The translations under genes were made by a program, and so were the position numbers. From the IMG/VR virus record IMGVR_UViG_3300028920_000068, positions 1 through 64,000 of that record: a stretch of DNA of 64,000 nt, one strand, 5' to 3'. The DNA is from a virus. Of this stretch, positions 3,250 through 63,354 are shown piece after piece. The notes beneath the pieces are model-generated. The model was not told the origin of the DNA. It searched no databases and saw nothing but the letters and a program-made list of their open reading frames with translations. Numbering within the stretch: the stretch's first letter is position 1; every line of letters begins with the position of its first letter.

Positions 3250-3251
3250 AC

Positions 3252-3280
3252 TTGACAAATGGTAAAAAATATGGTATACT
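3252..3280 (+). promoter_or_regulatory. sigma-70 promoter with extended -10
   Basis: TTGACA at 3252-3257 and TATACT at 3275-3280 are separated by 17 bp, with TGG directly before the -10 (extended -10). It would start transcription about 40 bases before the zinc-ribbon/RecA operon. Three other promoters in this window share nearly the same TATGGTATACTT core, so this is a recurring host-polymerase promoter. Confidence 0.88.
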
Positions 3281-3321
3281 TGTTATAGGAGAAAACTCTA
3301 ATTAATAAAAAGGAGAAAGAA

Positions 3322-14487: not shown

Positions 14488-14511
14488 AATGAAAGACGGC
14501 TTATATCAAGT
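14469..14511 (+). repeat. 43-bp direct repeat, copy 1
   Basis: This 43-base segment is identical to 15323-15365. It covers the last codons of the SbcC-like gene and the first seven codons (MKDGLYQ) of a truncated small ORF. After the repeat the two copies diverge but keep partial similarity for about 18 more bases. Confidence 0.92.
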
Positions 14512-14560
14512 AACATATATGGGAATTTTATCTTGCATTAATAACCATAATTCTTGTTAG
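14489..14560 (+). pseudogene. truncated remnant of the 47-aa gene at 15343, joined to a small membrane-protein remnant
   Basis: The frame starts MKDGLYQV exactly as the gene at 15343 does but stops after 23 codons. In another frame, bases 14514-14592 read HIWEFYLALITIILVSGIIF then IGLNNL and a stop, which looks like the 3' end of a small membrane protein without a start. The stretch therefore looks like a recombination scar between two former genes. The short peptide could still be translated. Confidence 0.5.
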
Positions 14561-14608
14561 TGGTATTATATTTATAGGTTTAAATAATTTATAAGGAGAA
14601 TGGAAAAA

Positions 14609-15365: not shown

Positions 15366-15486
15366 TAATTATAAAGGAATTTGTGCAGGTTTTGAAATAA
15401 AAAATGGGAAAGTAATTAATATTGCCCCAATTTTAAAGAAGAAATTTAATTTTTGGAAAACAATAGCAAAGAGGATAAAATCCTAA
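15343..15486 (+). CDS. 47-residue protein, intact counterpart of the remnant at 14489
   Basis: It begins MKDGLYQVNYKGICAGFEIK and ends in a basic hydrophobic helix (FNFWKTIAKRIKS). The first seven codons come from the 43-bp repeat. Stop and next ATG overlap (TAATG). The N-terminal half looks like a small beta hairpin similar to other phage KDG-Y start peptides, but no function can be given. Confidence 0.55.
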   Translation: MKDGLYQVNYKGICAGFEIKNGKVINIAPILKKKFNFWKTIAKRIKS

Positions 15487-17765: not shown

Positions 17766-17863
17766 AATTATGTAATCGTTGTAAACAATTAAAAAGTGAA
17801 AAAACACTTGACAAATCAATAAAAATATGGTATACTTATAATAGGAGGAATTTTAATGACTAG
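17759..17863 (+). CDS. possible 34-residue Cys-pair peptide (doubtful)
   Basis: An ATG overlapping the preceding stop opens a frame MLKLCNRCKQLKSEKTLDKS that carries one CxxC pair and then runs straight through the downstream promoter and ribosome site. The first 20 residues look like the start of a zinc-finger protein, so this may be a truncated gene interrupted by the promoter. It may also be chance. Confidence 0.25.
   Translation: MLKLCNRCKQLKSEKTLDKSIKIWYTYNRRNFND
17808..17836 (+). promoter_or_regulatory. sigma-70 promoter with extended -10
   Basis: TTGACA (17808-17813) and TATACT (17831-17836) are 17 bp apart, with TGG before the -10. The 3' part is nearly the same as in the promoters at 3252 and 26031. 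It drives the glycosylase, RNase H and phosphoesterase genes. The -10 region lies 20-25 bases before the ATG, so the leader is very short. Confidence 0.88.
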
Positions 17864-20062: not shown

Positions 20063-20092
20063 TTATTAAAATGCTCTAAATTGTATTTAATA
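20061..20092 (+). promoter_or_regulatory. putative late promoter (AAATTGTATTTAATA motif), plus-strand copy
   Basis: The 15-base core AAATTGTATTTAATA at 20078-20092 is identical to two minus-strand sites at 53083-53097 and 61522-61536. Upstream bases ATT-x-T and G-x-x-C recur at the same distance in all three. It lies 19 bases before the ATG of a phosphatase gene and begins the run that leads to terminase and portal. No TTGACA-type -35 is present. Confidence 0.65.
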
Positions 20093-20111: not shown

Positions 20112-20564
20112 ATGGCTAAAAAATTCTTAATTTTAAGCCGGGCCCGAGCAGAACAATATTGTCCTCAAGTGCCCCATGTCGCTATTTCCGTGCGTGATCC
20201 TAACTCATATAAGGCTCGCCTGCCTAAAAACAGGGAAAGATTGGCTGCTCTCTATTTGAGTTTTGATGATTTAGACTTTAGGCCAGATAGTGTTGGTGAT
20301 CGAAAAGTTGTGTTATTTAACACCAAACAAGCTAAACGAATTCTTAAATTTTATGAACAGTGGCGGGAGCAAGTATCGGTCTTTATAATTAATTGTGAGG
20401 CTGGAATTAGTCGAAGTGCCGCTATTGGAGCAGCTTTATGTAAAATTTCGGGACAAACAGATACAGACTTCTTCAGGAATTATTTACCTAATCGGTTCAT
20501 TTATAGAAAAATTTTGGGGGCAAAATACGGTGGTTATGAAGAAACAGAAAAAGATAAAAATTAG
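20112..20564 (+). CDS. tyrosine/dual-specificity phosphatase-like protein
   Basis: A 150-residue protein with the Cys-x5-Arg loop INCEAGISRSAAIGAAL (Cys95, Arg101), the catalytic signature of protein tyrosine phosphatases. A general acid could come from DDLDFRPD (about 52-59), although its spacing is not canonical. It is the first gene after the late-type promoter motif and may act on host or phage phosphoproteins or on phosphorylated nucleotides or RNA. The assignment to the PTP superfamily is fairly firm; the substrate is unknown. Confidence 0.7.
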   Translation: MAKKFLILSRARAEQYCPQVPHVAISVRDPNSYKARLPKNRERLAALYLSFDDLDFRPDSVGDRKVVLFNTKQAKRILKFYEQWREQVSVFIINCEAGISRSAAIGAALCKISGQTDTDFFRNYLPNRFIYRKILGAKYGGYEETEKDKN

Positions 20565-20709
20565 TTCTTTACAAGTGAATAAACAGACCAGAAAAGTGTG
20601 GCTAATCAATCCAAAAACTCGGGTAAAGCCCTCAGATAAGAAATATAAACGAAGTAAAGCCAAGCGTAAATTTCGTAAAAAATTGAGAGAAGAGTATGAT
20701 ATTGATTAA
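20536..20709 (+). CDS. 57-residue basic protein
   Basis: It starts inside the phosphatase gene (overlap of 29 bases) at MKKQKKIKISSLQVNKQTRK and is about one-third Lys and Arg, with a short acidic end (EEYDID). Possibly a nucleic-acid-binding or virion DNA-condensing protein, judged only from charge. The stop overlaps the next small gene. Confidence 0.5.
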   Translation: MKKQKKIKISSLQVNKQTRKVWLINPKTRVKPSDKKYKRSKAKRKFRKKLREEYDID

Positions 20710-20848
20710 AAAATTTATTGGATTAGTTTTTATGATTATCGGTTCTTTAATAATGACTCCGATTGTATTAGCAGTTATTAGTGGAATATTAATTTTTTTT
20801 GGTGGAATATATCTCTTTTTAATCGGATTGAACTTATGGGAGTTTTGA
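20696..20848 (+). CDS. 50-residue membrane peptide
   Basis: Overlaps the previous stop by 14 bases. The product (MILIKKFIGLVFMIIGSLIM onward) is almost wholly hydrophobic with two predicted helices and no charged residue after Lys6 until the penultimate Glu. A holin-like role is conceivable but unsupported. Function unknown. Confidence 0.5.
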   Translation: MILIKKFIGLVFMIIGSLIMTPIVLAVISGILIFFGGIYLFLIGLNLWEF

Positions 20849-20849
20849 T

Positions 20850-21611
20850 ATGAGCTTAGACTCTATGCCAAAAATTGTTAAAGATTATGCTAAATATATT
20901 GAATATACTAATCTAAAATCCCCGAACTCTAAACAAATTAAAAAAATTGTGCAAACAGCCAATGAGAGAGGTTATCTTGGTTTATGTTTACAGCCGGGAG
21001 ATCTAGGTGTAGCGATTAAATATAAACGACCTAAATTAAAATTAATTACGGTAGCTGGATTTCCACCAATCCATTCTTTTAATTTATTCGCAGATAACCG
21101 AAATAAACGATTGCATTTCGTACTGGGTTTCTATCGAAAGAAGGATATTGAAGAAATTAATACAATTATTGATAATGGTATCGCTGATGAATTAGATCTG
21201 GTTTTCCCTATGTATTGGTATGCCCGGGGAAAGTTTACTCGAATCTATAAGTTTCTTTCTGGAATTAAAAAAAGATATAGAAAACCAGTTAAGGTTATTA
21301 TTGAGCTTGGAACAATCCTGAATCGAGATGTGGTACTCTATGAGGTTATTGATTTACTAAAACAATCTAGTGTAGATTATCTTAAAACCAATACAGGCTT
21401 AATTAAACAGCCATTTAAAAATTTATATGCTTCAATTTTTCATACTAAATTATTGATGCGTGATATGAATATCCAGATTCCAATTAAGGCTTCTGGAGGA
21501 ATTCGGACAGAAGAAGAGGTGCAGAAATTAATTCAAGCAGGCGTACATAGAATTGGGACAAGTTCTGTCCCTAAAGTCACACAAAAAGACGAGGTAAAGA
21601 AAAATGATTAA
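20850..21611 (+). CDS. deoC: deoxyribose-phosphate aldolase
   Basis: A 253-residue class I aldolase of the DeoC family. Active-site positions are present: D116 in ADELDLVF, Schiff-base Lys179 in VDYLKTNTG and Lys213 in IKASGGIRT, followed by AGVHRIGTSS, the phosphate-binding end. It splits deoxyribose 5-phosphate into glyceraldehyde 3-phosphate and acetaldehyde, or runs in reverse. In a phage it may recycle deoxyribose released by the deoxyribosyltransferase-like enzymes. It is near the usual length. One base separates it from the upstream stop. Confidence 0.85.
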   Translation: MSLDSMPKIVKDYAKYIEYTNLKSPNSKQIKKIVQTANERGYLGLCLQPGDLGVAIKYKRPKLKLITVAGFPPIHSFNLFADNRNKRLHFVLGFYRKKDIEEINTIIDNGIADELDLVFPMYWYARGKFTRIYKFLSGIKKRYRKPVKVIIELGTILNRDVVLYEVIDLLKQSSVDYLKTNTGLIKQPFKNLYASIFHTKLLMRDMNIQIPIKASGGIRTEEEVQKLIQAGVHRIGTSSVPKVTQKDEVKKND

Positions 21612-21879
21612 AGACATTCCAAAAGAAGTTCAAGAAATAATGAGTTATCTAGCACATGATTTTGCCCGATCAATGAAAGATCCGGTACAGGATGAACAAG
21701 ATTTGTATAATGATATGGTAGTCTTATACTTAGAAAATAAACAGACAAAAAAAGTAAAAGACCCTACGGATAAAAATCAGTGGTTCGTTTTCTTTAAAAG
21801 CCAAATGTTAAATAAATACAAAAAATTGGCCGCCGAAAGACGGGGCCTTGATCGTTTAAAGAAATTATCACGGATTTAA
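21604..21879 (+). CDS. sigma-70 region 2-like small protein (candidate half of a split sigma factor)
   Basis: A 91-residue all-helical protein. DPVQDEQDLYNDMVVLYLEN matches the ECF-sigma region 2.1-2.2 pattern of an acidic turn then the core-binding helix (compare D-x-E-D-L-x-Q-E-x-x-L), and FFKSQMLNKYKKLAAERR matches region 2.3-2.4, which melts and reads the -10. It has no region 4, but the next gene, one base downstream, looks like one. T4 gp55 and bacterial SigO/RsoA show that sigma functions can be split. The assignment rests on pattern reading and needs profile searching. Confidence 0.5.
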   Translation: MIKDIPKEVQEIMSYLAHDFARSMKDPVQDEQDLYNDMVVLYLENKQTKKVKDPTDKNQWFVFFKSQMLNKYKKLAAERRGLDRLKKLSRI

Positions 21880-21880
21880 T

Positions 21881-22264
21881 ATGACAGCTAAACGTAAGAA
21901 ACCTAAAAAATATCGCAAGAGGGAAAAAGTTAAACCTATTAGGGAGATTCAATTTAATCTTCCTCGAGCATTAAAAACATACTTAAATGATAAAGAAATA
22001 TTATTGTTAAAGGGTATGTTGGCAAATTATACAATTCAAGATATGGCTGTAATTACGGGATATAATCGTAAAAATATTATGGAACGCTTAATTGATCTTG
22101 GTAGAGCATTACACGCTTTTGAATTAGCAGAACAAAAAATATTTCCCGAAAATGTGCCAAGTGCGGATTATTTGGTAGGGTTTAATGATTGTAAACGATT
22201 AATTAGGAGGTTAATTAATGAGCGGCTCAACTGGCGGAAGACCGTCAAAAACAGAAATCCATGA
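21881..22264 (+). CDS. sigma region 4-like helix-turn-helix protein (candidate other half of a split sigma factor)
   Basis: A 127-residue protein with a very basic N-terminus (KRKKPKKYRKREK) and a central segment LNDKEILLLKGMLANYTIQD then MAVITGYNRKNIMERLIDLG. That has the length and spacing of sigma region 4 (LxxxExxxLxLxxxxxxxxxEIAxxxGxSxxxVxxRLxxxxxxL). It lies one base after the region 2-like gene and just before terminase. Together they could replace or modify host sigma for late transcription. A plain DNA-binding regulator is the alternative. Confidence 0.5.
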   Translation: MTAKRKKPKKYRKREKVKPIREIQFNLPRALKTYLNDKEILLLKGMLANYTIQDMAVITGYNRKNIMERLIDLGRALHAFELAEQKIFPENVPSADYLVGFNDCKRLIRRLINERLNWRKTVKNRNP

Positions 22265-23021
22265 ACGTAGAGAAAAAACTCGAGAACTTTTTTTAAAAGG
22301 TAAAACACCGCATCAAATTTCAAAGGCTTTGAGGATTCATTATAATACAGCCCTTGCTGATGTGCAATATTTACAGGCTCGGTATACTTCTCTTATTGTT
22401 AAAAATTCTCAGCTTGCGAAAAGACAGTTGGCTCGAGTAGAGCAGTTACTTGATGAAGTAGGTATTCTTAAAGAAAATTATTGGGAACTCTATAAAGAAA
22501 TTCAGGAAAAAGTAAAAGAAAATAAGCGAAAGCTTAAAGAGTGGGAAAGGGAGGTTAAGGCTGTAAAAGCCGAATTAAAAGAAGCAGAAGAACAATATGC
22601 GGAAAATCGTTTTGATAAAGAGGCCCGTATTCGGGCCCGAGAATTAAGAAAGAAATTTGATTTAATTTCCCGGGAACCTCGGTATCCAGCCTATATTACT
22701 GCTCGAATTGATGCGTTAAAGGCTATTTTAGATAGAGTGGATAAAGAATCTAAACTTTTAAACCTATTTAATCCACAAGCTTTAATTGATAAGAATTATG
22801 TTTCTGTTGAAGTATTGAAAAGTGTTATGAAAATTTTCCAAAGTATCATTACCGATCTCATTCCTGAAGAAAAAAGACGATATGCTTTTAAACGATTAAA
22901 AACCATTGATATACAAAGCCTTGGTGGAGAAGAGGTTATAAATGCTGAATTCACTGAGAGCCGTCCCAAGAAACCAAAGAAAGTTAAGAAATCATCTGAT
23001 GATGAGGAGATTGATATTTAA
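22218..23021 (+). CDS. small terminase subunit-like protein
   Basis: A 267-residue protein. An N-terminal helix-turn-helix (REKTRELFLKGKTPHQISKA) is followed by a long charged coiled coil (about 75-145), a helical core and an acidic/basic tail. This is the usual plan of phage TerS, which recognises packaging sites and hands DNA to the large subunit. The position directly before terL (ATGG overlap) supports it. A TTAGGAGG site precedes the ATG, which lies inside the previous gene by 47 bases. Confidence 0.72.
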   Translation: MSGSTGGRPSKTEIHERREKTRELFLKGKTPHQISKALRIHYNTALADVQYLQARYTSLIVKNSQLAKRQLARVEQLLDEVGILKENYWELYKEIQEKVKENKRKLKEWEREVKAVKAELKEAEEQYAENRFDKEARIRARELRKKFDLISREPRYPAYITARIDALKAILDRVDKESKLLNLFNPQALIDKNYVSVEVLKSVMKIFQSIITDLIPEEKRRYAFKRLKTIDIQSLGGEEVINAEFTESRPKKPKKVKKSSDDEEIDI

Positions 23022-24790
23022 TGGAAGACGATTATAAAAATACATGGTCAACTTTTTGGGAAGATGCGGAGCAAAAAGAAGCACAGCAATCTGGAACTTT
23101 TTCACAAATACCTGTATCTCCCGAAATCTTTTTTCGGGATTGGTTAGAAACGCCACTTTTCCCCCGCCAACAAAAGGCTGTTAATGCGGCTTTTAATCCA
23201 AAGGCCACTATGCTTAGTGACAAATTTGCTGAATTTGTTTTAGCTTGGGGTAAGGGTTCTGGTAAGGATTTGACTATAGCCTGTCTCTTGTGTTATACTA
23301 TTTATTGGCTCAGTTGTTTGAATGATCCACAAGAAACTTTGGGTATTAAGAGCGGAGAACCTATTGATGTAGTCAATGTTGCTTTTGATGGAGATCAAGC
23401 TAAATCAGTCTTCTTTGAAAAATTTATTCGCATGGTTCGAAATACCGTTGATCCTATGACAGGTAAAAATTTCTTTGAAGAAATGGGGATGAACATTGAT
23501 CGGGACATTATTCGTAATCATGTTCTGTTTCCTAAAAATATCCGGGCATGGTCTTTGAATTCTAAGGAACATAAGGCTGAAGGTAAAAATGTAATCTTGG
23601 GTATTTTTGATGAGATTGGATCTTTTCGATTTGACCAAGCAGAAAATATTCGAAAGCATATCCGAACTTCGGCCCGGACAAGATGCCCGAAATATTATAA
23701 GTTGTTTTATATTTCTTATCTAACATCACCCAATGATTATATGGCCTACCTTATTGATAGGGCCGAAGAGGGGCAGATGGGGAGAACATATTTTGATAGG
23801 GCGGCCACATGGGATGTACGCTCTACTAAAAAATGTCCCAAGAATCTTTTAAAATATGTTGTTCATAAAGAAACTTATCAGGAAGAATATGACGAAGATC
23901 CAGCTACGGCTATGTTAATGTATGAATGTAAAATTCCAAAGTATCGGGCTAATAATTTTATTAAGCGAGCCGATAGAATTACTGAATGTATTTCTTATGA
24001 TAGACCCTCTCCAATGATTTTACAAGACTATCCAGATGAGGATGGTTATTCTAGTTTCTGGACAAGAGATATTGCTTCAGAAGAGTTTGAGCACTGGTTT
24101 CGTCCATTTCATACTTATGAGATTGAGGTAATGGAACGGGAATATGAAAAGAATCCTTCTGAGGATTTAGAGAATCGCATTAAAATTGAAAAAGAAAGAC
24201 ATTCGGCGGCTCAGTATTATATTCATATCGACCTTTCTCGAGGTGTAGTGGATGGTGCTGGCTTAGTAATGGGACATACTTACCGTATTTTGGATAAGAC
24301 TAAAATTTATGTAGATTTAATGTTACAGATTAGAGCTCCCCGTTCAGTTGATGGAAAACCAAAAGAAATTGATTTGAACGATATTTTAGAATTTGTCATT
24401 GAAAATTTACAGAAAAAATTAAAATTCCCTATTGTTAAGATTACCGCAGACGGTTGGAACTCTGCTTTATTTTTAAATATCTGCGAGAAAAATGGTATTG
24501 AGGCCAAGTTAATTTCATTAGAAAAAAATACTGGGCCGTATGATACACTCAAAGATTTCATATACAGAAAGGATATTTCTTATTATTTATATCCCACAGC
24601 TATTCGAGAATTAACTGAGTTGATTGTTACCGAAAAAAAGAAAATTGACCATCCAAGAAAAAGTAAGTGGCGTATGAGAGAAGAGGGTGTCAACTTAGGG
24701 AGTAAAGATATTTCAGATTGCTTGGCTGGAATTGTAGCCAGCATAACCGAAGAATCCGACGGAGAACCCTTAGCCGTCGCAGGTAAATAA
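23021..24790 (+). CDS. terL: terminase large subunit
   Basis: A 589-residue packaging motor. The ATPase has Walker A GKGSGKD (77-83), with Asp instead of the usual Thr/Ser, and Walker B VILGIFDE (D197, E198), with a coupling motif SYLTSPN at about 236. The RNase H-fold nuclease has YIHIDLSRG, VKITADGW and KDISDCLAG as acidic positions. It cuts and translocates DNA into proheads through the adjacent portal. It is on the plus strand although the capsid and tail genes are on the minus strand far to the right. Confidence 0.9.
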   Translation: MEDDYKNTWSTFWEDAEQKEAQQSGTFSQIPVSPEIFFRDWLETPLFPRQQKAVNAAFNPKATMLSDKFAEFVLAWGKGSGKDLTIACLLCYTIYWLSCLNDPQETLGIKSGEPIDVVNVAFDGDQAKSVFFEKFIRMVRNTVDPMTGKNFFEEMGMNIDRDIIRNHVLFPKNIRAWSLNSKEHKAEGKNVILGIFDEIGSFRFDQAENIRKHIRTSARTRCPKYYKLFYISYLTSPNDYMAYLIDRAEEGQMGRTYFDRAATWDVRSTKKCPKNLLKYVVHKETYQEEYDEDPATAMLMYECKIPKYRANNFIKRADRITECISYDRPSPMILQDYPDEDGYSSFWTRDIASEEFEHWFRPFHTYEIEVMEREYEKNPSEDLENRIKIEKERHSAAQYYIHIDLSRGVVDGAGLVMGHTYRILDKTKIYVDLMLQIRAPRSVDGKPKEIDLNDILEFVIENLQKKLKFPIVKITADGWNSALFLNICEKNGIEAKLISLEKNTGPYDTLKDFIYRKDISYYLYPTAIRELTELIVTEKKKIDHPRKSKWRMREEGVNLGSKDISDCLAGIVASITEESDGEPLAVAGK

Positions 24791-24804
24791 AGGAGGATAT
24801 AATA

Positions 24805-26028
24805 ATGGCTAGAAAAAAAACAACAAGAACCCCTAAAATTGGCCGGAAAACGAAAAGTGCTGTTCGTTTAAAGGGGACAGAACAAGTCCGTGATAGAAAA
24901 CGGGAGGCGGTAGGTTTTGGATCTAAGGCGGCAACCTATCAACCATACAGTAGCCTTTCCATTTCTCAGTTACGGAATTTAATTTTAAGTACTATTTGGG
25001 CGGAAACCTGTGTTGAAACTATTGTTGATGAAGTCGTAAAATATAGGTTTCGTACAGATCCCGGGGCTAGTGATATTAATGGTTTGTTGAGTTATCCCTC
25101 ATTGAAAGAGCCTTTATTTATGATACGAAAACAGTATCTTAAAGACATGCTTTTATGGGGTAATGGTGCTTGTATTATCGAATATAAACAAAATAAGCCG
25201 AATCAGTTGGTTGTTACTCCGGGCTATACTTTGAGAATTACAGATGATAATCCGCCAAAGTATAAACTTTTAAAGCTCGGGAGTAATTCTGAATTTGTGC
25301 AAAAGAAAGGTAAAGATCTGATCTTAGAAAATAAAGAGGTCATGCACTTTTGTATAAATAAAGACAGCGATTCTACTCTAGGAAGATCTCCATTAGAGCG
25401 GGCTTATAATGATATTGTGTCCGATCAGGAGTCTGCTAAGAAAATGGTTGCTTTTGTTAAAAGAGGTTTTACAAAACCTTCATTTATTTCTTTTAAGAAA
25501 GGTTCTTCTGTGAGCAAAAATGAGCTCATAGATTTTGTGGAATATTTGAACGGTCTTTTAACTGAAGGGGCCAAGGTTTTGGGGATCAATAAAGATGTAG
25601 ATCTGAAGGAGATCCCTTATTGGGAAGCTAAGGAAATTATTGACCTTCAAAAATGGATTGGATTAAAGGTTGCTTCTGTTTATAAAGTCCCGCCTTTTAT
25701 GCTTAACTTAGTTCAGGATGTCGGTTCTCTTAATGCTAGAGAACAGAAAGCCCGGTTTTTAGAAAATGTGGTTATGCCAATTTTAGAGTATGAGGCATTT
25801 CTTTATACTAATATTTTGGTACGCAAGGGCTATAAAAAACTTGATACTGTTATTACTTCCAATGTTTTGGGTACTCGTTTGAATTATGACCGGGCCCGAA
25901 TTGCAAATCTTTTAGTTGGTTCAGAGGAAGGAATCTTAACAGTGGATGAGGCCCGCAGATTATTTTTTGGCCTTAACCCGAAAGGTGAAGAAACTAAACC
26001 GCCGATAGTCGAAGAACCCGGAGCATAA
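24805..26028 (+). CDS. portal protein, HK97 type
   Basis: A 407-residue portal. Landmarks of the HK97-like portal family appear in order: ETCVETIVDEVVKYRF, YLKDMLLWGNGACIIEY, EVMHFCINKDSDSTLGRSPLE, LKEIPYWEAKEIIDLQKWIG and ASVYKVPPFMLNL, then a long helix toward the C-terminus. It forms the twelve-subunit ring at the capsid vertex. The Lys/Arg-rich first 35 residues may contact DNA. It ends the terminase operon; the next promoter follows at once. Confidence 0.87.
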   Translation: MARKKTTRTPKIGRKTKSAVRLKGTEQVRDRKREAVGFGSKAATYQPYSSLSISQLRNLILSTIWAETCVETIVDEVVKYRFRTDPGASDINGLLSYPSLKEPLFMIRKQYLKDMLLWGNGACIIEYKQNKPNQLVVTPGYTLRITDDNPPKYKLLKLGSNSEFVQKKGKDLILENKEVMHFCINKDSDSTLGRSPLERAYNDIVSDQESAKKMVAFVKRGFTKPSFISFKKGSSVSKNELIDFVEYLNGLLTEGAKVLGINKDVDLKEIPYWEAKEIIDLQKWIGLKVASVYKVPPFMLNLVQDVGSLNAREQKARFLENVVMPILEYEAFLYTNILVRKGYKKLDTVITSNVLGTRLNYDRARIANLLVGSEEGILTVDEARRLFFGLNPKGEETKPPIVEEPGA

Positions 26029-26030
26029 CC

Positions 26031-26059
26031 TTGACAAATGACAATTTTTATGGTATACT
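26031..26059 (+). promoter_or_regulatory. sigma-70 promoter with extended -10
   Basis: TTGACA (26031-26036), a 17-bp spacer and TATACT (26054-26059) preceded by TGG. It starts two bases after the portal stop and would drive the helical 157-aa gene, tRNA-Asn and the primase-helicase run. The sequence continues CTTGTTATA as in the promoter at 3252. Confidence 0.88.
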
Positions 26060-26098
26060 TGTTATACATAAATTTTAACCATTGACCGGAGGATAATT

Positions 26099-52601: not shown

Positions 52602-53047
52602 TATTTCCTCCGATTCGAGATAATATAAAATCTCCAGTCTTCATAAGGAACTGTCCTAAAAATTTCCGCTATTGTTTTCTTATCTTCTGGCAATGCTGTT
52701 AAATATTTTTCCGGCAAATAAAGCATACCAGCAAAAGTATATGATTTATTTGTGGTAATCTTTTCAACCTTAAAATTTGGGCCAAAGAAAACCGTACCAA
52801 AAGTCTTCACTTTACGAAGAACCATTAATGGCTTAGTCCGATCTTTGTTAATATAACCCAAGACCTTATCCTGATCTATATGAAAAAGGCTTGAATTTGA
52901 AATCACGATCAAATTTTCTTTATCTGGAATAATCCGAGATAAGTCAACCCGCTCTCCGAGATATTCACAATTCTCTAAGGCGGTTTTTAGGTAGGATATG
53001 ATAACCTTATCTCCATAAGTATGCCTGCCATAAACATAAGTTTTCAT
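52601..53047 (-). CDS. protein of unknown function, first gene after a late-type promoter
   Basis: A 148-residue alpha/beta protein. KENLIVISNSSLFHIDQDKV then TFGTVFFGPNFKVEKI and YTFAGMLYLPEKYLTALPED faintly recall the middle of sugar-nucleotide transferases, but no nucleotide-binding loop is present. It starts about 36 bases after the promoter motif at 53083-53114 and leads into the connector operon, so it may be a structural or assembly factor rather than part of the sugar cassette. Confidence 0.5.
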   Translation of the reverse strand: MKTYVYGRHTYGDKVIISYLKTALENCEYLGERVDLSRIIPDKENLIVISNSSLFHIDQDKVLGYINKDRTKPLMVLRKVKTFGTVFFGPNFKVEKITTNKSYTFAGMLYLPEKYLTALPEDKKTIAEIFRTVPYEDWRFYIISNRRK

Positions 53048-53082: not shown

Positions 53083-53114
53083 TATTAAATACAATTTTGC
53101 CCTAAAATATAATG
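53083..53114 (-). promoter_or_regulatory. putative late promoter (AAATTGTATTTAATA motif), tail operon
   Basis: On the minus strand the 15-base core AAATTGTATTTAATA is preceded at fixed distance by CATT-x-T-x-TTTT and G-x-x-C, shared with 61522-61553; the two 32-base sites agree at about 25 positions. It follows the end of the glycosyltransferase gene at 53117 and precedes the gene at 52601 and the whole connector/tail run. No sigma-70 -35 is seen. Confidence 0.68.
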
Positions 53115-59730: not shown

Positions 59731-60999
59731 TTAAACACTCAAAAAATCACTAAAGAATGTTTCAGGATTCTGGCCCGGTTTTCTCTTTTGGGCTGCCTCC
59801 CGAATTTTATCTATGTTATCAACATCGAGACTTTTCTTGATGTCTTCCAAGACCTGATTAAGTTTATCCAACTCATTGATCTTTTCCGCCATCTTAGCCA
59901 CTCTCTCCGACAATTCCTGATTTCTCTGAGTGAGTTCATCGACTTTTTGTTCAAGAGCCTGTTTATCGTCTGTTTGCTCTTCGGACTCAATATCGGTGTT
60001 CTCAGCGACGGTCTCAGAGTCCTCGGTTTCATCTTCCGTTGACTCATTAGATTCGGTACTCTCCTCCATAGCCTCTTCAGTTTGCTCGGCCTCTTCACCA
60101 TCCGTCTCTTCGGCCTCTACATTATCTTCAGCAGACTCTTCTGGAGAAATCTCATCTTCCTCTGAAGTTTCTTCTGCGGCTTCCTCGGTTTCCTCTTCGG
60201 ACGATTCGGTTTCTTCTGTATTTTCTGTTTCTTCAGTCGATTCCTCTTCAGCCGTAGTCTCTTCCGTATTTTCCTCAGTGTCTTCTTCAGAAATATTAGA
60301 ATCAGTAGCCTCTTCTTGAGACTCACTGTTTTCATCTTCTGTTTGCTCTTCGGAAGTTTCCTCATCCCGTTTAAGAGCTTCCCGAATATCCAATTTTTCA
60401 GCAGATTTTTCATCCACTAAACCACGAACAACCAATTCCCGTTTAAACGCATCAGCTTTATCAGCGTTTAACGCTTCAGGATTTCCGGGCACTGGAACTG
60501 CCGAATACTCAAACAATTCCCATTTATAAATAAGATACAGACCCCATCCACCAGCATCTTTAATCTGCTCAGAAGTAATATTCAAACCATACTTCTTATT
60601 AAGGTCTTCCCTATTTTCCTCATCAAACCGTTTATACTTCAACGGCATAAAACCAATTGACCACGCATGTAAAAAACCATCCTTATAAGCATTAAAAACT
60701 TTTACCGCCAAAGGATCATTTTTATTAAATTCAGTTGTGGCTACAATTTCTTCCTCACGAATATCCAGATCAACGCATCTTCCGATAGGAATTTTAGGTG
60801 TAGCTTCGTCCATATTATGCGACCATAAAACCACCGCATTATTAAGGAAATGAGTTGCATCCACACCTTGAGGTAAAACCACAGTCCCATGACGATCCAA
60901 TACCTTAGTATTAATAGTATGGGTAATCCTATAATTTTCCTCATCCACACTACGAATGGATGTTCGGAGAAAGCCATGTCTTTTTTCACTTAAATTCAT
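59731..60999 (-). CDS. prohead protease fused to acidic scaffold
   Basis: A 422-residue fusion. Residues 1-190 are a U35/S78 prohead protease: His61 in VVLWSHNMDE, Ser114 in HAWSIGFMPL and Glu164 in WELFEYSAVPVPG. Residues about 215-350 are an extreme Glu/Thr/Ser-rich tract with many EETEE-type units, followed by a coiled coil (KQALEQKVDELTQRNQELSE) typical of scaffold. After assembly the protease digests the scaffold. The ATG at 60999 follows AAGGAGG by eight bases and is preferred to the one eight codons earlier. Confidence 0.85.
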   Translation of the reverse strand: MNLSEKRHGFLRTSIRSVDEENYRITHTINTKVLDRHGTVVLPQGVDATHFLNNAVVLWSHNMDEATPKIPIGRCVDLDIREEEIVATTEFNKNDPLAVKVFNAYKDGFLHAWSIGFMPLKYKRFDEENREDLNKKYGLNITSEQIKDAGGWGLYLIYKWELFEYSAVPVPGNPEALNADKADAFKRELVVRGLVDEKSAEKLDIREALKRDEETSEEQTEDENSESQEEATDSNISEEDTEENTEETTAEEESTEETENTEETESSEEETEEAAEETSEEDEISPEESAEDNVEAEETDGEEAEQTEEAMEESTESNESTEDETEDSETVAENTDIESEEQTDDKQALEQKVDELTQRNQELSERVAKMAEKINELDKLNQVLEDIKKSLDVDNIDKIREAAQKRKPGQNPETFFSDFLSV

Positions 61000-61027
61000 A
61001 AAATTTTCCTCCTTAAATTCCATCGTA

Positions 61028-61414: not shown

Positions 61415-61590
61415 ATTATTGTCCTCCTTGATTACCTTCTAGTTTCCGATAAACAAAGGATATTTGATTATGCCGTCGCAAATTTATCACTTTAATCAAT
61501 TAATATCCTCTATTTTCCTACTATTAAATACAATTTAGGGCAAAAAGAAAATGTTTTTTAAGCCCATACCAATCCAGCGGCATGGAGATA
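61415..61590 (-). promoter_or_regulatory. leader region of the capsid operon
   Basis: This 176-base gap without a gene holds the late-type promoter motif (61522-61553) and a leader of about 108 bases ending in AAGGAGGACAATA before the ATG at 61414. I see no ORF or sigma-70 sequence. A G+C-poor stretch with short inverted repeats follows the promoter. Confidence 0.55.
61522..61553 (-). promoter_or_regulatory. putative late promoter (AAATTGTATTTAATA motif), capsid operon
   Basis: On the minus strand CATTTTCTTTTTGCCCT is followed by AAATTGTATTTAATA. It is the second minus-strand copy of the 32-base motif seen at 53083-53114; the core is identical. It stands before the most highly expressed genes (tube/decoration, protease-scaffold, capsid). 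Confidence 0.7.
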
Positions 61591-63354
61591 TTAATTAACC
61601 CCTAATATTGCAGTCGCAACGATTTTCATTAATTTTTCGTTTGCTGTTACATATTTATAACGAAAATCCGTATCTGAAGGTTGAGCAGAAACATCTACAG
61701 TAGCAATTAATGTTTTCTCATTTCCTTCAAATACTGCACCATATTCTAATGTAGCTTGAGTCCAAGTTGTTCCATCATCTCTTGAAACATATAAAAGCAA
61801 ATCAGTATTCAAAGTAATAACATCAATATCTTCTTCAATACAAACAATTCTAGCTCGATCAAAAACAGAATTTAAAGAAAGAGTTTCAGAAACTAAAGTC
61901 ATGTTTTCATTATCACCAGAATATTCTACTGTTGGAGCAGTAAAGTTAGCTGTATGACGAGCAATTCCTTTAGAAATTCGAATTTCATCTAGCCATCCCG
62001 GAAAATCATTTGCACCACCTGTACCACCAATATTCAAATCCGCATCAGGATTAGCCATACTTCCAGTAGCAGATTGTTGTAATGTTAATTCTGTTCCATC
62101 AAGAAAAAATCTAAAAGTTCCAGAACATCTATTAACTTCTAAATGATACCATCGTTCAGTATCTAAAGAAGCAAGACCTGAAATAACAGATTGAGATAAA
62201 GAATTTGATGCTATCTGAAATGCACTACTTGTATATAGTAATTGCCAATATGTTCCACCAGTTAAACAAGACATAAGATAATTACTCGATAATCCACTAC
62301 TCAATCTAAATTGAAAATCAATCGTAAAATCGCCTGAACCAAATTGCCAATCAGAACGAGTTCCACTTGCTGTTATATAATCACTATCACCATCAACAAT
62401 TAATGAAGCAGAACCAAATTTTTTCTGTGCTGTATCTAATTCAGCTTGACCAGAAAAACCAATAGTATGTTCAGAAGCAGATACATCCGTTGTTGAAGTA
62501 GCTCCATCAACACCGTTTAAATGGAGCATAAGTTTTGTGTATTCATCATAACCCGAAACTGGTGTATAATAATCATCGACTGAATTATAAGTTTGATTTT
62601 CAGATTCACCAGCATCAATACCAGATTGATCTATATACCCATCAATCCAACCATTAATAATTCCAGAAATCGTTAAAGTATTTTTAATCGTAGTGCGAAC
62701 TAAAGTAACTAATTGATTAAAAACATTAATTCTTATTTCATTTGCAGAAACTTCATCATTACCACCATCATCCAATTTAGAATCTGTATCTTGCGTATGT
62801 TTTTTATCTATACTATCTTCTAAATTAGATTCAGTAATTTTTGTCGTTGCACGAACACTATCACCAACAGAACTTGGTACAGATAATCCAGTCAATTTGT
62901 GACTGTTCATATCTACATTAGATTCCATCTGCCCCAAAGATTGATCTGTTCCCTGTATATGTTTTTTATCAACAGCATCTTTTACATCAGCAACATTAAC
63001 TTCATTTGCTCCACCTTCATCAAGTTTTTGATCTGTTCCTTGAGTATGTTTTTTTGTTACCGCATCATCAATATCATCCACAGCAGAGGTCGGTTTACCA
63101 GAAATAGCCGCCCAAACCACATCAATAATATCTCCATTATCATCCCAGTCAGATAAATCACCAGAAATCTCGTCAGAAGTCCAAATATAAAGATGTCCAT
63201 TATCCGCTGAAATCCTAGCATCACCTTTTGCATTACCAGATAAAGGCAAAGCCGCTTGAGAGGCCACACCTGCTTTAATAGATACAATAGATCCATTAAA
63301 AACTTGCTGTAATAATCCGGTAAATTTATTGACTTTTGTTTTATAAAAACTCAT
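61591..63354 (-). CDS. tail fibre-like protein with LamG domain
   Basis: A 587-residue structural protein. After an N-terminal beta region there are three repeats of the type KKHTQGTDQKLDEGG (about 100-190), a shaft helix/coiled-coil, then a LamG domain (about 275-465: LMLHLNGVDGATSTTDVSAS, FGSGDFTIDFQFRLSSGLSS, FPGWLDEIRISKGIARHTA) and a beta C-terminal domain. The KKHTQGTD unit is shared with the fibre protein at 37161. Likely a receptor-binding or decoration component. Confidence 0.7.
   Translation of the reverse strand: MSFYKTKVNKFTGLLQQVFNGSIVSIKAGVASQAALPLSGNAKGDARISADNGHLYIWTSDEISGDLSDWDDNGDIIDVVWAAISGKPTSAVDDIDDAVTKKHTQGTDQKLDEGGANEVNVADVKDAVDKKHIQGTDQSLGQMESNVDMNSHKLTGLSVPSSVGDSVRATTKITESNLEDSIDKKHTQDTDSKLDDGGNDEVSANEIRINVFNQLVTLVRTTIKNTLTISGIINGWIDGYIDQSGIDAGESENQTYNSVDDYYTPVSGYDEYTKLMLHLNGVDGATSTTDVSASEHTIGFSGQAELDTAQKKFGSASLIVDGDSDYITASGTRSDWQFGSGDFTIDFQFRLSSGLSSNYLMSCLTGGTYWQLLYTSSAFQIASNSLSQSVISGLASLDTERWYHLEVNRCSGTFRFFLDGTELTLQQSATGSMANPDADLNIGGTGGANDFPGWLDEIRISKGIARHTANFTAPTVEYSGDNENMTLVSETLSLNSVFDRARIVCIEEDIDVITLNTDLLLYVSRDDGTTWTQATLEYGAVFEGNEKTLIATVDVSAQPSDTDFRYKYVTANEKLMKIVATAILGVN

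Follow-up and report, generated by a model that had tools for sequence, protein, structure and literature searches.

The window, the whole 64,000-nt stretch that we analyzed, comes from a record of 70,426 bases for a bacterial virus that has been seen only in environmental DNA, and carries on its plus strand an operon (20112-26028) in which two small genes stand together with the terminase and portal genes. The first encodes a 91-aa product (protein 1) and the second a 127-aa product (protein 2), with an intergenic gap of 1 base. The genes around the pair follow a simple order, in which the coordinates, strand and assignment of each are as follows:

20850-21611, plus strand: DeoC-like (TIM-barrel aldolase-like) gene, the fixed upstream neighbor (51-61% identity in relatives by tblastn; also present in L049-L052)
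21604-21879, plus strand: protein 1, a sigma region 2-like protein of 91 aa (family alignment A4, NCBIfam matches of the family, hhalign, AF2 model and fold matches)
21881-22264, plus strand: protein 2, a sigma region 4-like helix-turn-helix (HTH) protein of 127 aa (alignment A5, matches of the L196 ortholog, fold matches and hhalign)
22218-23021, plus strand: HTH/coiled-coil small-terminase-like protein, the fixed downstream neighbor, kept in all relatives
23021-24790, plus strand: large terminase, same operon as the pair
24805-26028, plus strand: portal, same operon as the pair

The sequence-only reading had described two adjacent genes one base apart within the terminase operon, and both statements were borne out. 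In every close relative that covers this stretch, the DeoC/TIM-barrel-like gene lies directly 5' of the two genes, an odd metabolic-type gene within a packaging operon. Elsewhere in the genome, we noted a duplicated stretch around AATGAAAGACGGCTTATATCAAGT (14488-14600 and ~15380-15453), probably a partial gene duplication, and, beyond the window, an ArdC/zincin-like ORF that is possibly an antirestriction protein (L040:7578-8507) and a radical-SAM-like ORF with a CNFSCAHC motif (L040:9450-10154), the latter two judged by eye from their translations.

Relatives were gathered by terminase-guided searches, which gave 11 distinct loci covering this stretch, the window included; a search of bacterial genomes for a relative of the terminase found none. 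Comparison of gene order among these phages, a check that had been proposed from the sequence, showed the pair kept between the DeoC-like gene and the small and large terminase genes, with both genes present, separate, adjacent and in the same order in 11/11 loci and a fused form in none. The spacing between the two genes is -8 to +4 bases in close relatives, and in L049-L052 they overlap by longer stretches. Identity to the window proteins ranges across the relatives from 32 to 59% for protein 1 and from 24 to 50% for protein 2, with the C-termini of both poorly conserved. Since both genes are kept in all loci while identity falls to 32% and 24%, the two ORFs are, on comparative grounds, maintained coding genes and not chance ORFs. 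A programmed frameshift that would fuse the pair into one sigma factor was also considered, and was ruled out because the second gene of L003 sits in another relative frame, showing that the frame relation is not conserved.

In the family alignment A4, residues 28-79 of protein 1 line up with ECF sigma regions 2.1-2.4. Its DLYND motif (residues 33-37) occupies the DxVQE clamp-binding position of region 2.2, and W60..FK..LxNK falls at region 2.3/2.4. The acidic/Gln motif of region 2.2 (D-L/I-x-Q-E/D) is kept throughout the family: D33 is invariant, position 36 is Q, N or H and position 37 is D or E, each in 11/11 members; the corresponding stretch of the distant homolog in L196 is DIAQEL. The window protein by itself matched no sigma family in the family databases, its sole match being PF25684 (Mycobacteriophage Gp53) at E 0.019. 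When the members were searched one by one against NCBIfam, six of the 11, the window member not among them, matched TIGR02985 (RNA polymerase sigma-70 factor), with a best E of 3.8e-4; nine of the 13 NCBIfam families matched by the members are sigma factors, including all of the top four, while ten other small window proteins searched as a control gave no sigma match (0/10). All these family scores lie below the curated cut-offs, and the members are related to one another, so that their matches are not independent. In the members with printed ranges the alignment is in register with region 2 (L051, 10-91 to 15-96 of PRK12542; also FecI, 23-92), and L050 matches phrog_354, a sigma-K factor, at E 0.006. 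Thus the helix pattern like ECF sigma region 2 that had been read from the 91-aa product finds its support in the family, and not in the window protein taken singly.

The AF2 model of protein 1 has three helices (7-23, 31-48 and 57-90) at a pLDDT of 86. Sigma2 of Mycobacterium SigH is among its best fold matches (Z 6.4-6.6 over 77-82 residues) but is tied with a tRNA-kinase domain, which is unrelated (Z 6.8, 60 residues), and Foldseek against the PDB gave nothing better than E 2.5. Helical folds of this kind give unspecific structure matches, and the two proteins might bear no relationship to sigma factors at all, being small helical DNA-binding proteins, for example packaging accessories, with a chance resemblance; the conserved packaging neighborhood would suit such a role, as would the fact that the window proteins by themselves match no sigma family. 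We consider this very unlikely in view of the enrichment of sigma models among the family matches, the clean controls, the single one of 200 column shuffles that reached the protein 1 profile score, and the distant homolog pair described below.

Protein 2 starts with a basic N-terminal tail; its HTH spans roughly residues 28-80 and is followed by a conserved C-terminal helical segment (P..DY..G...K..IRR) that is extra, in that it is absent from sigma region 4. The window protein matched no sigma family in the family databases and none of the known late-regulator families (RinA/ArpU/Ltr), and weak matches to phrog_248 (transcriptional activator) were limited to sigma4-only relatives. Direct searches of window proteins 1 and 2 against phages, viral contigs (as single sequences) and PDB sequences returned no useful match. 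AF2 modeled protein 2 as an HTH protein at a moderate pLDDT of 68.5, for which sigma4 structures (3mzy, Z 6.0; 8jzt, 5.6; 6ido, 5.5; 1ku7, 5.2) and LuxR-type domains score equally, so that the fold alone cannot decide between them. Foldseek against the PDB gave nothing better than E 0.89; in BFVD, the best match is an uncharacterised Streptomyces phage protein, and a phage 'sigma-70 region 4' protein stands at rank 9.

A link from both proteins to sigma models came from L196, a far relative whose large terminase is 34% identical. Direct hmmsearch with the protein 1 profile matched an 87-aa ORF of L196 (935-1198) at E 4.6e-4 among 1,131 ORFs; a 130-aa ORF (1199-1591) lies directly 3' of it and is followed by a homolog of the small-terminase-like gene (E 3.4e-10). 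The 87-aa protein covers positions 3-76 of the 165-position ECF sigma model TIGR02937 (E 0.026), and the 130-aa protein covers positions 99-161 of the same model (E 1.5e-5). The latter also matches phrog_351, an RNA polymerase sigma factor, at E 3.8e-6 and Sigma70_r4_2 at E 3e-4, its scores lying below the curated cut-offs where these exist. The two neighbors thus cover both ends of one sigma model in order, which is the pattern of a split sigma factor. A search of the distant phages with the A4 profile returned nothing, though direct hmmsearch finds the L196 protein, and the A4 model also matches one spurious ORF of the window at E 0.0057; for the link to L196, synteny and the NCBIfam matches, obtained independently, therefore count as well. 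As far as the domain assignments hold, regions 2 and 4 are kept together on two separate genes in 11 loci plus L196. The region 4-like segment noticed in the 127-aa product is accordingly supported through its L196 ortholog, and not through the window protein by itself.

The L196 phage holds a further region 2-like ORF besides the split pair (L218, G020:27613-27771; ~170 aa; Sigma70_r2 E 1.2e-7), and its 902-aa large terminase ORF (L196:3753-6461) contains, close to the Walker A region, an intein-like insertion that opens with CIDGGTLIKD. One-piece sigma factors are encoded elsewhere in some distant phages. Phages whose terminases are 27-34% identical encode a single Sigma70_r4-type protein (E as low as 1e-13) 1-3 genes upstream of the small or large terminase gene, with no region 2 gene beside it:

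L055:1165-1560, L198:3807-4214, L204:140-520, L211:3216-3641, and others: lone Sigma70_r4-type proteins

Profile-profile comparison by hhalign improved as the alignments became deeper. Against the bacterial ECF profile alone, the P value was weak for protein 1 (0.036) and 0.0068 for protein 2 against region 4, and of 150 concatenated decoys, 9 reached the score of the joined pair; with decoys as good, we dropped that profile as evidence in its own right and use the comparison as support only after addition of L196 and phage sigma factors, when protein 1 aligned in register at P 0.0033 and protein 2 reached P 1.3e-4 (0.00013). The protein 2 family also aligns to region 4 of SPO1 gp34 (P 0.005). 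Profile searches and structure prediction, two grounds on which the sequence-only reading could have failed, gave sigma similarity at the level of the family, a three-helix model and an HTH model, and modest fold matches; neither refuted it. Taken together, the pair likely belongs to the sigma-70 family.

Protein 2 could nevertheless have another role. Ltr/RinA regulators are basic proteins of ~130 aa encoded just upstream of late genes (PMC13123087), and protein 2 resembles them in being small, basic, HTH-containing and next to terS. In such a reading, protein 1 would be a gp55-like region 2 sigma, and protein 2 an independent late activator of RinA/ArpU/Ltr type that aids the host sigma or modulates protein 1. 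The tie between sigma4 and LuxR-type domains, the conserved C-terminal segment foreign to sigma4, and the many distant relatives in which a sigma4-like protein stands alone near the terminase genes would all fit. However, protein 2 is always accompanied by protein 1 in this phage group, in the domain order of sigma and abutting or overlapping, and the L196 pair aligns to the two halves of one sigma model; we thus hold an independent activator to be unlikely.

Two classes of motif precede operons in the window genome. Class 1 is host-like (TTGACA-N17-TATACT with a TGG extension), and the TATGGTATACT of its copy at 17808 recurs at 3250-3321 and 26029-26098. Class 2 is TAAATTGTATTTAATA with an upstream AAACATTTTC-like box; it occurs exactly at 20077 (plus) and 61537 (minus), and with one base different at 53098 (minus) and 65387 (minus, beyond the window). 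The shorter element AATTGTATTTAATA is exact at 20079 (plus), 53083 (minus), 61522 (minus) and, beyond the window, 65372 (minus), and each of the four copies precedes an operon that is encoded on its own strand; a search for one-mismatch copies of this element found none. The sites within the window are as follows:

17808-17836, plus strand: host-type promoter TTGACA-N17-TATACT with TG extension (consensus scan, 11/12)
20077-20092, plus strand: candidate late promoter with -10-like TGTATTTAATA, an exact motif copy at the start of operon 20112-26028
53083-53098, minus strand: candidate late promoter for the minus-strand operon that begins at 53047; the core is exact and a AAACATTATA box lies upstream
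61522-61537, minus strand: candidate late promoter for the capsid operon, which runs downwards from 61414; the motif is exact and a AAACATTTTC box lies upstream

The motif TGTATTTAATA differs from the host-type TTGACA/TATACT sites. Downstream of the 61522 copy, the gene at 59731-61023 has matches to major head/protease families; a virion structural gene (61591-63354) is among those that follow the 65372 copy, whereas no family was matched by the genes immediately after the 53083 copy. A recurring non-sigma-70 motif had been claimed before the terminase, capsid and tail operons; the claim held for the first two, and a tail operon at 53083 is a likely assignment.

The class 2 element also precedes the DeoC-sigma2-sigma4 operon of L004/L005. 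The core TGTATTTAA was found in four phages, three of them relatives of the window phage (G000, G012, G002 and G009), where its sense copies in upstream regions number 4, 2, 2 and 2 against 0.04-0.10 expected each, or 10 in total against ~0.3 expected, with 0 antisense. Across these sites, the invariant TGTATTTAA is followed by an ATARTAG-like stretch, and a weaker T-rich box, approximately TTTTCT, lies 14-18 bases upstream of TGTATT. In G013 and G014, in which the pair is present and more diverged, TGTATTTAA was not found upstream of genes, and a de novo motif search gave no clear cognate late motif. G013 (L143-L145) does contain a 14-mer, CGAGACATAATGAG, four times (3323, 9848, 23665 and 49474), all on the plus strand. 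The motif and the pair are linked by co-occurrence only.

Phage proteins that sit at the binding place of sigma can, by inference, block transcription instead of directing it, and both proteins might be sigma-derived and yet act as anti-sigma or polymerase-redirecting factors for host shut-off or appropriation, with no promoter recognition of their own. This is the alternative to which we give the least credence: a distinct, promoter-like motif recurs before the late operons, and models of Sigma70_r2 (PF04542) and Sigma70_r4_2 (PF08281) found no match in the phage's own record, where no other region 2 sigma was found, so that something must read the motif.

A sigma factor directs RNA polymerase to the sites at which transcription begins. 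It normally consists of one chain, and separate regions 2 and 4 working together are known from few systems. We think it probable that the two genes specify a single late-gene sigma factor of the phage, made as two pieces, sigma2 and sigma4. Protein 1 would be a free-standing sigma region 2 that docks on the beta' clamp helices of the host RNA polymerase and reads and melts the -10-like element TGTATTTAAT; protein 2 would be a free-standing sigma region 4, placing its HTH on the beta flap tip and contacting upstream DNA at the T-rich box. Together they would replace the host sigma late in infection, and the near-abutting genes suggest that their translation is coupled. What the sequences show is two conserved genes, sigma-family similarity, predicted folds and a recurring motif; polymerase binding, the partnership of the two proteins, motif recognition and autoregulation are inferred.

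The case for the last of these lies in the order of the sites. The operon starts with the class 2 motif and lies downstream of the class 1 promoter, with only a weak terminator-like site between 17808 and 20077, which suggests read-through first and self-amplification afterward. The host-type promoter at 17808 would probably supply the first transcripts through read-through, and the motif at 20077 would then amplify the pair and turn on the packaging, capsid and other late operons, so that the late sigma factor formed by the pair is probably autoregulated. On this model, transcripts would begin ~6-8 bases past TATTTAAT at each of the four motif copies. More broadly, we lean toward the view that this phage lineage has kept both sigma-derived halves as two genes over large divergence, as an obligate two-protein late sigma factor that reads a bipartite promoter class of its own and governs the operon from which both it and the terminase are expressed. 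A two-gene split with one gene per working domain is a rare layout, and the matching candidate late promoters make the reading testable: the candidate promoters, both proteins and a dozen diverged versions are at hand, including diverged pairs in phages without the motif. The system opens the questions of why the linker region is dispensable, how -10 recognition shifts, and whether split phage sigmas arose from one-piece ones.

The known systems named at the outset, SigO/RsoA and T4 gp55/gp33, are apt comparisons, both being two-part sigma systems, and the literature that we searched yielded no phage split sigma of this kind beyond these two. In Bacillus subtilis SigO/RsoA (YvrI/YvrHa), region 4 and region 2 are separate small proteins that are encoded in one operon and act jointly (PMC8103513). 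The present pair shares the two small proteins and the single operon; compared by description, it differs in that the yvrI-yvrHa system is bacterial and names the sigma4 gene first, whereas here a phage carries the sigma2 gene first, in a terminase operon. In T4, gp55, a region 2 sigma, occupies the clamp helices and reads only a -10-like element, and gp33 is a sigma4 mimic on the beta flap (PMC2988020, PMC7892883); the two have been called a split sigma, but gp33 is without sequence similarity to sigma (PMC2988020; structure in PMC7892883), whereas the protein 2 family has detectable sigma4 similarity. T4 gp33 also has no sequence-specific DNA binding, and the sliding clamp serves as the activator of the T4 system. 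SPO1 gp34 and gp33 are likewise adjacent, overlapping phage genes for late transcription, and it is region 4 of gp34 that aligns to the protein 2 family; however, gp34 aligns as one chain to the ECF profile over regions 2 to 4 (P 0.016), and gp33, which carries the annotation 'sigma factor accessory', is unlike both proteins of the pair. Mycobacteriophage Gp53 (PF25684) has a region 2.2-like EDLINDIWVWYLES that aligns to DLYNDMVVLYLEN (E 0.004-0.11 in three members; hhalign P 0.0004), but is a longer single protein in another gene context, and the sigma annotation of Rachaly gp53 is that of its depositors. RinA/ArpU/Ltr proteins are like protein 2 in size and place, but are single regulators without a region 2 partner. 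The known cases cited include no phage pair of which both halves derive from sigma. Two-part sigma factors are thus already known, and what is new here is a phage-encoded pair in a packaging operon, with the sigma2 gene first, in which both halves look sigma-derived in sequence.
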